IMG/VR virus record: IMGVR_UViG_3300030380_006291
Coordinates: 1-24,771 of that record
DNA length: 24,771 bases
From: a virus
Direction: 5' to 3' (one strand)
The notes under the pieces were generated by a model. The model did no database searches. It was not told the DNA's origin and saw nothing but the letters and a program-made list of their open reading frames with translations. The position numbers and the translations under genes were made by a program. Position 1 is the stretch's first letter. Each line of letters starts with the position of its first letter. This document shows, one piece after another, positions 10,520 through 14,413 of the stretch.

Positions 10520-10527
10520 TATTTATA
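10520..10527 (-). promoter_or_regulatory. T4-type late promoter for gp48
   Basis: On the minus strand this reads TATAAATA, the exact T4 late consensus, ending 14 bases before the gp48 start codon and overlapping the stop of the upstream gene. It would be used by RNA polymerase with gp55, gp33 and the sliding clamp. Confidence 0.6.
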
Positions 10528-10912
10528 GAGTTGTAAGGAAATAGGCATATGATATATCTCTTAGGTCGTTGATTTCACTGGGTCGGACTACATATAAATT
10601 TCCTCCGATCTCTTGCCATGTGTAGTTTCTAAATTTACCCCAATGATAATTGAGACCTCTGAATCCCCATCTTTGAATATCAGTCACTGCAACCAGAGGA
10701 TGTTGGTCATATGTCATTCTTGGAGTTTTTGCAGTGTAGATAAAAGTATAATACTGCCCCACATCTGGTACTACTTCTACATTCTTCAATGCATCCATGA
10801 TAAGGAGCATTTTCTCCTCAGGATCAGTTAGTTCTTTCAATTCATCCATGATAGGTGCGATTCTATTATCACCTACCTGTTCTTCATACTGACTAAAGTA
10901 ACTATCTGCCAT
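10523..10912 (-). CDS. Uncharacterised protein between gp4 and gp48 (129 aa)
   Basis: I cannot assign this gene. It begins MADSYFSQYEEQVGDNRIAP, has a helical first half (MDELKELTDPEEKMLLIMDALKN) and an aromatic-rich second half. That half includes YYTFIYTAKTPRMTYDQHPLVAVTDI, a WGFRGLNYHWGKFRNYTWQEI stretch, and VVRPSEINDL, ending in SYAYFLTTL. The many Tyr/Trp residues and beta-like pattern suggest a small structural protein, for example a baseplate or head-tail component. It overlaps the upstream gene (gp4) by 11 bases. In T4 no gene lies between gp4 and gp53, so this is a cyanophage addition. Confidence 0.82.
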   Translation of the reverse strand: MADSYFSQYEEQVGDNRIAPIMDELKELTDPEEKMLLIMDALKNVEVVPDVGQYYTFIYTAKTPRMTYDQHPLVAVTDIQRWGFRGLNYHWGKFRNYTWQEIGGNLYVVRPSEINDLRDISYAYFLTTL

Positions 10913-11390: not shown

Positions 11391-12053
11391 ATGGTCACTC
11401 CAAGACCGCAAAAGAAAGTATTAGCAGATTTAAAGGCATCTATTTTAAATCCTGCACTTACTTCGCATTTTCAATGTTGGTTTTATCCTCCTGCCTCTGT
11501 TAGGTCTATCTTACCTGCAGGAGAAGCACAGAATGATGAGATTTGGTCATTATCTTGTGCAGAGGCCACATTGCCTGGTACTTCACTAGCAACTAATGAA
11601 CTTCTTAATGATCATACAGGTGTAACTGAGAGGCATGTATATAGAAGACAGTATGATACCACTTCTTCATTCACCTTTTATGTAGATCATGATTATAAAA
11701 TTATTAACTTCTTTGAGAAGTGGATTGGTTTCATTGTGAATGAACAAAATAGCACTGCAGGGAATTATTTTTACAGAGTAAATTTTCCCACCTTATATCA
11801 AACTTCTATTTACGTTAAAAAGTTTGAAAAAGATTATAATAGAGTATTAGAATATAGATTCTTAAAGTCTTATCCTATTAGTATTAATACAATGCCTATA
11901 ACTTATAATGCATCTGAGCTATTGAAGTGTACAGTTAACTTTAACTTCTCTCGTTACTTAGTAGAAACTCAAAATAATATTAATGCCGTCTTATTTGATG
12001 GTCCTGTTCAAGAAAATGGATTAACTAATACTGCTATAACTTTAAACGTTTAA
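11391..12053 (+). CDS. Tail-tube-fold baseplate protein, gp54-like
   Basis: A 220-residue protein with the pattern of the gp19/gp54 tail-tube family: HFQCWFYPPASVR, then SLSCAEATLPGTSLATNELL, RHVYRRQYDTTSSFTFYVD, a KIINFFEKWIGFIVNEQ segment, and LEYRFLKSYPISINTMPITY ending in NFNFSRYLVE. This mixture of short strands and one helix is the tube fold. T4 gp54 (320 residues) forms the initiator ring on which gp19 polymerises. The protein is closer in length to gp19 (163), but its position beside gp48 and gp26 argues for a gp54-like initiator; a minor tail-tube paralogue is the alternative. It is divergent from gp4 across 36 bases. Confidence 0.72.
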   Translation: MVTPRPQKKVLADLKASILNPALTSHFQCWFYPPASVRSILPAGEAQNDEIWSLSCAEATLPGTSLATNELLNDHTGVTERHVYRRQYDTTSSFTFYVDHDYKIINFFEKWIGFIVNEQNSTAGNYFYRVNFPTLYQTSIYVKKFEKDYNRVLEYRFLKSYPISINTMPITYNASELLKCTVNFNFSRYLVETQNNINAVLFDGPVQENGLTNTAITLNV

Positions 12054-12096: not shown

Positions 12097-12816
12097 ATGC
12101 CATTACCAAAGATTGCGACACCGACGTATGAGTTGGAATTACCTTCTACCAGAAAACCTATTCATTATCGACCATTTTTAGTTAAAGAAGAAAAACTTTT
12201 AGTTCTTGCATTAGAAAGTGAGGATGTAAAAGAGATAACAACTGCAATTAAAAATGTAATTAAATCTTGTATCAAAACAAGAGGAATTAAAGTAGAGAAT
12301 CTTCCTACTTTTGATATTGAATATTTGTTCCTCAACATTCGGGGTAAGTCTGTTGGAGAAGACATTGAGGTTAATCTTGTTTGTCCTGATGATAAAAAGA
12401 CACAGGTTCCTGTGACTATTAATATTGATGATGTTAAGATCCAAAGGTCTAAAGGACATACTAATAAGATTAAATTAGATTCCTCTTTGATGATGGAGAT
12501 GAAGTATCCATCTCTTTCTGAGTTTATTAAAAATAACTTTGATTTTAATGAAGAGAATGTAATGGATCAGTCCTTTGAAATGATCGCTTCTTGTATTGAT
12601 AAAATTTATAATGAGGAAGAGGTATGGGTGGCTGCTGATTGCACTAAGAAAGAAATTAATGATTTCTTAGAATCCATGAACACTACACAATTTAAAGAGA
12701 TTGAAAAGTTTTTTGAAACTATGCCTAAACTTTCTCATAAAGTGAAGATTACTAATCCTAATACAAATGTAGAAAATGAAGTTGTAATGGAGGGATTATC
12801 TAGTTTTTTCGGCTAG
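12097..12816 (+). CDS. 26: Baseplate hub assembly protein gp26
   Basis: A 239-residue protein with the cyanophage gp26 signature: MPLPKIATPTYELELPST, then YRPFLVKEEKLLVLALES, AIKNVIKSCIKT, FDIEYLFLNIRGKSVGE and SMNTTQFKEIEKFFETMPKL. T4 gp26 (208 residues) is needed for baseplate hub assembly. Its fold and position suggest a role like the tail-assembly chaperones of other phages; that is inference. The last codons are AGT TTT TTC GGC TAG. The T TTT TTC run is a -1 slippery heptamer followed by a hairpin, and the -1 frame stays open into the next gene. A fusion of 238 gp26 residues with the 55-aa partner, about 299 residues, is predicted. Confidence 0.88.
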   Translation: MPLPKIATPTYELELPSTRKPIHYRPFLVKEEKLLVLALESEDVKEITTAIKNVIKSCIKTRGIKVENLPTFDIEYLFLNIRGKSVGEDIEVNLVCPDDKKTQVPVTINIDDVKIQRSKGHTNKIKLDSSLMMEMKYPSLSEFIKNNFDFNEENVMDQSFEMIASCIDKIYNEEEVWVAADCTKKEINDFLESMNTTQFKEIEKFFETMPKLSHKVKITNPNTNVENEVVMEGLSSFFG

Positions 12817-12839
12817 CTCTAGTCCATATGGATCTAGAG
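12804..12839 (+). promoter_or_regulatory. Candidate programmed -1 ribosomal frameshift signal
   Basis: A slippery heptamer T TTT TTC (12804-12810) is in the right phase for gp26. A 6-base spacer follows, then a hairpin: CTCTAG (12817-12822) pairs with CTAGAG (12834-12839). TCC (12823-12825) pairs with GGA (12830-12832) around the loop ATAT, with one bulged T at 12833. The downstream gene's ATG (12828-12830) is inside the hairpin. These are the parts of a classical -1 frameshift site; no experiment supports it here. Confidence 0.75.
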
Positions 12840-12995
12840 AGTTACTATAAACTGAATTTTTCTTTGATTCAGTATCATAAATATTCATTAACTGAGATAG
12901 AAAACTTGATCCCTTGGGAGAGAGACATTTATGTTGAATTACTTCGAGCACATCTTGAAGAAGAGAAACTAAAACAGCAACAAGCAGCATCATAA
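12828..12995 (+). CDS. 55-aa partner of gp26, probably made as a -1 frameshift extension
   Basis: The frame begins MDLESYYKLNFSLIQYHKYS and continues with LTEIENLIPWERDIYVELL, ending in a Glu/Lys/Gln-rich helix. It occupies the position of T4 gene 51 (hub assembly) but is far shorter than T4 gp51 (249 residues), so I do not give that name. The YSLTEIENLIPWERDIY pattern recalls the P2 E+E' chaperone extension, in which a short SLxEL-x2-W-R/E motif is added by frameshift (memory-based). There is no ribosome binding site before its ATG, which is buried in the frameshift hairpin. The stop overlaps the next ATG by one base. If the frameshift is real, the coding extension starts at 12810. Confidence 0.8.
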   Translation: MDLESYYKLNFSLIQYHKYSLTEIENLIPWERDIYVELLRAHLEEEKLKQQQAAS

Positions 12996-14413
12996 TGGCT
13001 ATAACCGTTATTAATCCATCAGTTACGAAGATTTTATTGGATCTAGGAATCGATCCAATAAATCCTTATGATCCCGATAATGCTGAAGACACTTATATGT
13101 CTGCAGTCAGGGAGGGTATTAATACTATTGAATCTGCCACCAAAGGAAAAGGAGATAGAAGAACAAGAATACTAAGAGAGGAATTTCAAGGATTACTGGA
13201 GAGAAAAAGAGGAAAAAAAGTAAAATTTGTCTCTAAGTTATTAGCAAAGAAAAGTATAATACCTACTAATAGAATACGTCCTCAAGCATTGCTTCCACCA
13301 GCAGAAGGAATAGGTGGTGCGTCTGCAGATTCTCAAAATAATATAATTGGAGGTTTACTAGGTAGTATATTAAAAATTCTTCAAAAGGATAGTAATTTAG
13401 ATAAACTAGAATTAAGAGAGAGAAGAAAAGAAAGACAAAGAGAAAAAAGAAGAGAGGCTGAAGAGAGAATAGAAAAAATATTTAAAGGAACAGGTGCAGC
13501 TGCCCGTGCAGGTCAGAAGGTGGTGGATAAATTAACCTCTCCATTTCAATCCATATGGAAGAGGTTAACAGAATTTCTCAAATTGACTGTTATAGGAACA
13601 TTATTCAATAAAGCATTGAATTGGTTTAGCAAGGAAGAGAATCAAGAAAAAATGGGAAGGGTTGTTAGATTCTTAAAGTTTTGGTGGCCCTCCATTTTAG
13701 CAGGTTATCTTGCATTCTTTACACCTTTAGGAGGATTGGTTACTGGTGCGATTGGATTATTGGGAACAGCTCTTCCTGCTTTATCAGGACTAATTGCAGC
13801 AAATCCTATCTTAGCTGCTGCTGTAGCTGCTGGTGGGTTGGTATTGGGTGCTAAGGCTTTAGATGGAGATTTCTCAGGAAAAGAAATGTCTGAAGAAGAG
13901 AAAGCAGCAGCAAAAGAAAAGTCAGAGGAAGTTATGGCAGATGATTTTCTCCCTAATTTATTTAATCAAGGTGGATTTGTGAGTCCCAGAGTTTTTGGTG
14001 AGGCTGATAAAGATACAGTCCCTGCTATGCTTACGCCTGGTGAGTTTGTGTTAACTAAGGGTGCAGTGAGGAGATTTGGTACAGGAATGCTGGAGTCAAT
14101 GAATAGAGTGGGTGGGGGGACTAATAAAGGTGGTCCGATGTATGAGGGTGGTGGACTTGTTGGTGATCTTTCATCAATGAAAGAAAACACTCAAACTAAA
14201 TTTTTACCTGTTAAGGCAAGCGGAATGAATCCTGTTAGCACTCCTATAAGAGTTAAAAATATTAGCACCACCACGGTGTTACCAGCGATCAAAAAAGAAG
14301 AATCAGAACCAACAATAGAACGTGGTGATACTATTCCCACCTTTGAGATTTTGAGTCCTTCTGAGGCTAGATATACTACTTTAATAACCTTAGGTATTGA
14401 GGGTGTAGCATAA
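12995..14413 (+). CDS. Tape-measure-like tail protein, first of two
   Basis: A 472-residue protein. The N-terminal 150 residues are basic and helical, with a Lys/Arg/Glu coiled-coil (ERRKERQREKRREAEERIEKIF). Residues about 180-215 (SIWKRLTEFLKLTVIGTLFNKALNWF) and 227-290 (WWPSILAGYLAFFTPLGGL and an Ala/Gly/Leu-rich run) are strongly hydrophobic. Then follows the motif FNQGGFVSPRVFGEADKDTVPAMLTPGEFVLTK (about 323-355), which is typical of tape-measure proteins. Such proteins set tail length and may enter the host envelope. Together with the next gene it may replace T4 gp29 (590 residues). It directly follows the predicted chaperone pair, as in other tailed phages. Confidence 0.75.
   Translation: MAITVINPSVTKILLDLGIDPINPYDPDNAEDTYMSAVREGINTIESATKGKGDRRTRILREEFQGLLERKRGKKVKFVSKLLAKKSIIPTNRIRPQALLPPAEGIGGASADSQNNIIGGLLGSILKILQKDSNLDKLELRERRKERQREKRREAEERIEKIFKGTGAAARAGQKVVDKLTSPFQSIWKRLTEFLKLTVIGTLFNKALNWFSKEENQEKMGRVVRFLKFWWPSILAGYLAFFTPLGGLVTGAIGLLGTALPALSGLIAANPILAAAVAAGGLVLGAKALDGDFSGKEMSEEEKAAAKEKSEEVMADDFLPNLFNQGGFVSPRVFGEADKDTVPAMLTPGEFVLTKGAVRRFGTGMLESMNRVGGGTNKGGPMYEGGGLVGDLSSMKENTQTKFLPVKASGMNPVSTPIRVKNISTTTVLPAIKKEESEPTIERGDTIPTFEILSPSEARYTTLITLGIEGVA

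Follow-up and report, generated by a model that had tools for sequence, protein, structure and literature searches.

A probable programmed -1 ribosomal frameshift in gene 26, the tail-assembly chaperone gene of a T4-like cyanophage

Gene 26 of a T4-like cyanophage very probably contains a programmed -1 ribosomal frameshift, by which the short protein gp26 would be extended into a longer form carrying the segment that other records annotate as gp51. The gene is part of the window analysed here, a stretch of 24,771 nucleotides from the IMG/VR record IMGVR_UViG_3300030380_006291, and the features of the locus are compiled in Table 1. The 3' end of gene 26 reads AGT TTT TTC GGC TAG, so that the slippery heptamer T_TTT_TTC lies in the phase of gp26 and is followed by a spacer of 6 nt; direct reading bears out the coordinates given for both in the first-pass annotation of the window. 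From the slip site onwards, the -1 frame is free of stop codons until 12993-12995 and runs into a 55-aa ORF (12828-12995). As that annotation had also proposed, the predicted fusion comprises 238 residues of gp26, six residues (RLALVH) and the 55-aa tail. Its total length would be 299 residues, with the junction peptide ...SSFFR / LALVHMDLESYYK.

Table 1 Features of the gene 26 locus in the window
Feature	Position	Strand	Evidence
Upstream tail-tube-family gene	11391..12053	+	PF23849 Phage_TTP_2, E 2.5e-12; phrog_45 tail tube, E 2e-31
Gene 26, short tail-assembly chaperone (TAC-N form), 239 aa	12097..12816	+	ORF; PF12322; phrog_150 baseplate hub; AlphaFold2 model
Shine-Dalgarno-like GGAGGG, putative upstream frameshift stimulator, ~10 nt 5' of the heptamer	12789..12794	+	Sequence; synonymous enrichment; anti-SD energy
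Slippery heptamer T_TTT_TTC in gp26 phase	12804..12810	+	Sequence; in phase as TTTTTTC/T in 176/179 homologues
-1 frame extension, RLALVH + 55-aa 'gp51' tail, stop included; TAC-NC-specific C-terminus	12810..12995	+	phrog_634; gp51 homology; Ka/Ks
gp26 0-frame stop codon TAG	12814..12816	+	Sequence; ORF list
Longer bulged stem (6 + 3 bp) of the first-pass annotation	12817..12839	+	Fold; largely confined to near relatives of the window
Short conserved hairpin with CCAUAUGG core and arms at 12821-12825 and 12830-12834, 10 nt downstream of the heptamer	12821..12834	+	Covariation, 76 distinct relatives
Tape-measure-like gene; start overlaps the tail stop (TAATG)	12995..14413	+	ORF; weak phrog tape-measure hits, E 2e-4

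In the proposed mechanism, most ribosomes would terminate at the TAG codon at 12814, and gp26 would be released as the short tail-assembly chaperone. A few would pause on T_TTT_TTC while the Shine-Dalgarno (SD)-like element pairs with 16S rRNA and the hairpin lies in front of the ribosome. Both Phe tRNAs would then re-pair one base back and the ribosome would go on to 12992, yielding the 299-residue gp26-'gp51' fusion as the long form. If the system works like lambda G/GT, the short form may coat the tape-measure protein, while the tail of the long form may recruit tail-tube subunits. We infer the slippage itself, its rate and this division of labour between the short and long forms.

Most T4-like phages share the slip site and the open -1 frame. 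All 80 close relatives from IMG/VR have an identical heptamer at this position and an open -1 frame. Across a wider set of 179 homologous genes, T_TTT_TTY was found at the same site in 176 genes and in 32 of the 35 clusters formed at 70% identity, and the -1 frame is open in every complete locus compared. Codon usage alone would place TTT behind a T-ending codon in each of the 32 clusters with a probability of ~1e-16, a value that treats the clusters as independent, which they are not fully since relatives share descent. The heptamer occurs in Kyanoviridae, Emmerichvirinae, KVP40-type phages, pf16 and phages of Stenotrophomonas, Xanthomonas, Sinorhizobium, Agrobacterium, Delftia and sulfate reducers. 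Individual phages with T_TTT_TTC or T_TTT_TTT in place are pf16, Aeromonas AS-szw, Vibrio VmeM-32, D483, KVP40, Stenotrophomonas Ps15, Xanthomonas X1, Sinorhizobium phiN3, Agrobacterium OLIVR5, Delftia PhiW-14, the sulfate-reducer phage SRB7757, the methylotroph phage Melnitz-2 and the pelagiphage Mosig, together with ~80 distant IMG/VR loci. A scan with the Vibrio K483 protein returned no further relatives. In a marine clade (L111, L126, L138, L141 and related loci) and in Mosig (L185), the gp26 stop is located 21 nt further downstream, which gives the short form a longer 0-frame end; the position of the heptamer is unchanged.

Relatives lacking the heptamer are few and follow one of two patterns. 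Phages of the T4 type have neither the heptamer nor the -1 tail and possess a separate long paralogue, gp51, instead. Ackermannviridae and related vibriophages have kept the -1 tail behind a shorter U-run, with a slip site of the form N_NTT_TTY only. The variants observed in these loci (L178, L181, L195-L198) are GGTTTTC, GATTTTC, AATTTTC, ACTTTTC and GCTTTTT, and two of the Vibrio phages among them show a TAATG start-stop overlap. These loci may use a weaker or different slip mechanism, or re-initiation. In the T4-type locus L174, GAG TTT TTT AAA occupies the homologous position at the end of gp26, but no -1 tail follows; the motif resembles a remnant of the slip site that was left when duplication gave rise to genes 26 and 51.

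The -1 extension behaves as coding sequence. In cyanophages, the Ka/Ks ratio of the -1 frame is 0.37 over the four codons that separate the gp26 stop from the tail ATG and 0.16 after this ATG, whereas the other frames of the region exceed 1. These ratios indicate purifying selection on both sides of the ATG. The tail could alternatively be a separate small gene (gp51), started at its own ATG at 12828 or by re-initiation after the gp26 stop, and GenBank annotates it in this way in P-SSM2, S-PM2, KVP40, phiN3 and others; 77 of 79 cyanophage loci do have an ATG no further than 45 nt from the heptamer. However, such an ATG is missing from 77 of 91 tails of other lineages (2 of 79 in cyanophages), and tail ATGs, where present, are on average not preceded by an SD (mean -0.4 kcal/mol), in line with the poor independent initiation first suspected from the window alone. 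The ATG at the position of 12828 is replaced even in the near relatives L037, L048, L049 and L067, two of which have another ATG nine bases upstream. As the -1 frame is conserved at the protein level already ahead of the ATG, ATGs are mostly absent outside cyanophages and an SD is lacking, a separate gene is a poor explanation. It would also leave the conservation of the heptamer unexplained, and the tail of T4 exists only within the long gp51. We regard a separate gene as very improbable. The tail is unannotated in the GenBank entries of Syn10 (L192), ACG-2014d (L193), Aeromonas AS-szw (L085) and Vibrio VmeM-32 (L177), and none of the GenBank records examined annotates the fusion as a joined CDS.

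Two candidate stimulators flank the heptamer. The glycine at the upstream SD-like element is fixed by the protein, while the choice among synonymous codons is not. Among the relatives, the Glu codon at this place is GAG in 73 of 94 cases, compared to 30.5% elsewhere in the genes, and the glycine codon is GGG in 52 of 176 cases, compared to a background of 4%. The mean anti-SD pairing energy at the element is -6.5 kcal/mol (background -1.4 kcal/mol). Judged by this codon usage, the SD-like element is under synonymous selection. The window's genes contain 57 in-phase X_XXY_YYZ heptamers in 7,767 codons, so such motifs are not rare and one could lie beside a stop, with an open -1 frame behind it, by accident. 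The gp26 heptamer is the only one of the 57 that would allow translation to continue for more than 100 nt beyond the 0-frame stop, and its conservation in 32 of 35 clusters, together with the selection on synonymous sites, refutes chance, to which we assign a negligible probability.

Downstream of the heptamer, a short hairpin is conserved among 76 distinct cyanophage sequences (alignment columns 18-22/27-31). It consists of 5 bp, is 85% paired and has an AUAU-type loop. Double changes occur in all five pairs, and the number of double-changed cells is 40 compared to 9.8 in shuffles. The window itself forms four of the five pairs, with the outermost (A-C) being absent. The first-pass annotation had drawn a different, bulged hairpin of 6 + 3 bp one register over. 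This stem folds as drawn, with a minimum free energy of -12.3 kcal/mol, and is unremarkable by itself given a z-score of -1.49 (13 of 200 shuffles fold as well). Across relatives it pairs in 63% of cells and is largely confined to the closest ones. A covarying hairpin downstream of the slip site thus stood, while the bulged stem was rejected as the conserved stimulator in favour of the short hairpin. An Rfam search of 12700-13100 gave one sub-threshold hit only.

Both stimulators bear on the question of whether the polymerase rather than the ribosome slips. RNA polymerase could stutter on the T-run and thereby produce the fusion, as the run comprises six Ts in the window, seven in pf16-type phages and eight in Melnitz-2. 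Six Ts are short for polymerase slippage. Moreover, the codon phase X_XXY_YYZ is kept everywhere, and both the covarying hairpin and the SD-like element, spaced as in dnaX, are stimulators of ribosomal slippage, which favours ribosomal over transcriptional slippage. We consider the latter very improbable, somewhat more so than a separate gene.

The window gp26 belongs to PF12322 (E 2.7e-75; 253 bits, curated cut-off 24.5), as do both T4 gp26 (208 aa, 216 bits) and T4 gp51 (249 aa, 178 bits). The -1 tail matches phrog_634 (E 5e-28), a family that also includes the C-terminus of gp51. The relationship of the 55-aa tail to a known chaperone, proposed earlier as a check, was found with the C-terminus of gp51: hhalign aligned the tails with residues 200-248 of T4-type gp51 at E 4.7e-7. 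PMC3004832 counts T4 gp26 and T4 gp51 among the hub-assembly chaperones. Since both proteins are members of PF12322 and the gp51 C-terminus is homologous to the -1 tail, T4 encodes the short and the long form separately; by homology, T4 gp26 (short) and gp51 (long) are paralogues of the window's gene 26.

The fold of gp26 points in the same direction as its proposed role as a tail-assembly chaperone equivalent to lambda G/GT. The AlphaFold2 model of the window gp26 has a pLDDT of 87, and the best structural matches of residues 1-95 are HK97 gp13 (2ob9, Z 8.0), 3fgx (Z 7.4) and YqbN (3klu, Z 7.3), followed by the next match at Z 4.8. All three are named as phage tail assembly chaperones (PMC9603447). 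A Z of ~8 is near the level reachable by unrelated folds, and Foldseek with the gp26 model gave no significant E-value for a chaperone fold, so that the chaperone-like fold predicted for the N-terminal domain is supporting evidence and not proof. Searching the sequences of solved structures with either gp26 or the tail gave nothing significant, and a fold search with the long, gp51-type protein of T4-type phages yielded no chaperone match.

The 30,111-base IMG/VR record, which is a fragment, contains one PF12322 gene plus the frameshift tail; the two-gene arrangement of T4 was not found in it. In an unrooted gene tree, T4-type gp26 and gp51 fall together on one side of a branch with 99/98 support, and the gp51 proteins form one clade. 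Emmerichvirinae, which belong to the same family as the T4 type (Straboviridae), have the frameshift arrangement. Based on its spread, which includes Straboviridae other than the T4 type, we infer that the frameshift is the older arrangement and that the duplication into genes 26 and 51 is derived. Cyanophage gp51 was noted to lack its first ~200 residues and to have ~20% of the normal length, for which no explanation was given (Sullivan et al. 2010, PMC3037559). The separate encoding of both forms in T4 explains this apparent truncation.

The gene downstream of the tail had been regarded as a tape-measure-like gene. Weak phrog hits (E 2e-4) agree with this assignment, while a comparison with T4 gp29 gave no sequence match. 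In cyanophages, the start of this gene overlaps the tail stop (TAATG or a few bases) and lacks an SD, the mean SD strength being -0.9 kcal/mol compared to -2.5 kcal/mol for gp26. The overlap and the absent SD suggest that its translation could be coupled to shifted ribosomes, although weak SDs are frequent among cyanophage genes. That the frameshift also gates the tape-measure-like gene, which would be delivered mainly by slipped ribosomes, is a tentative idea that we think is probably wrong. The signal itself has the form of a three-part, dnaX-like cassette. The tape-measure-like region of the window consists of two ORFs (472 and 417 aa, from 12995 and 14413), the second of which starts at the last base of the stop codon of the first; S-PM2 features a single ORF of 1167 aa directly after the tail. 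Elsewhere in the window, a 129-aa ORF on the minus strand (10523-10912) shows a partial match to a DNA end protector (phrog_429, residues 44-93, E 4e-17) and is much shorter than the usual gp2.

Compared to lambda G/GT, the arrangement shares a short chaperone ORF with a heptamer near its end and a -1 extension, flanked by a tail-tube-family gene on one side and a tape-measure-like gene (a weak match here) on the other. It differs in the heptamer, which is G_GGA_AAG in lambda and U_UUU_UUC in the window, in the evidence for stimulators, an SD-like element upstream and a hairpin, and in the proteins, which are alike in structure only. In the myovirus P2, the tail chaperone E/E+E' likewise has a slippery run rich in T (T_TTT_TTG) and directly precedes the tape-measure gene, but its protein family differs from that of gp26; its -1 frameshift was reportedly described by Christie et al. 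in 2002. The dnaX gene of Escherichia coli has an SD-like element ~10 nt upstream, a heptamer and a downstream hairpin. The window has the same three-part layout, but the dnaX frameshift leads to a shorter product and that of the window to a longer one. T4 gp26/gp51 share the PF12322 family and the short and long forms with the window, which differs in using one gene and a frameshift instead of two genes (26 short, 51 long). An open -1 frame and a conserved GTTTTT at the TAC-N end characterise the TAC of Pseudomonas phage Adele and other Vandenendeviridae (PMC12846349, 2025); these belong to another phage family and have a shorter U-run, like the Ackermannviridae variant.

The T4-like tail chaperones gp26/gp51 were identified by Vladimirov, Gautam and Davidson (Virology 2022;566:9-15), as cited in PMC10885494 and PMC12846349. 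According to the PRFect paper (PMC10885494), which refers to this study, some T4-like phages use a short and a long gene and no frameshifting; the Adele paper (PMC12846349) names the same study as the source for poly-T slip sites in T4-like TAC-N genes. The frameshift in T4-like tail chaperones is thus probably known in outline. The first-pass annotation knew of no description for T4-like cyanophages. In the literature searched, we found no paper on the cyanophage frameshift, its SD-like element or the covarying hairpin, but the novelty is smaller than that annotation held because T4-like tail chaperones were published in 2022.

Tail-chaperone frameshifting has been described as widely conserved 'except T4' (PMC5009743). 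One frameshifted gene in most T4-like phages and two paralogues in the T4 lineage account for this exception as well as for the short gp51. The finding matters for how the tail module is annotated in viruses that are among the most abundant of the ocean; their records sometimes omit the -1 tail altogether. If the gating of the tape-measure-like gene were true, a single slip site would set the amounts of the long chaperone and the tape measure together. The T4 lineage represents a natural experiment, in which a recoding event would have been replaced by a gene duplication.
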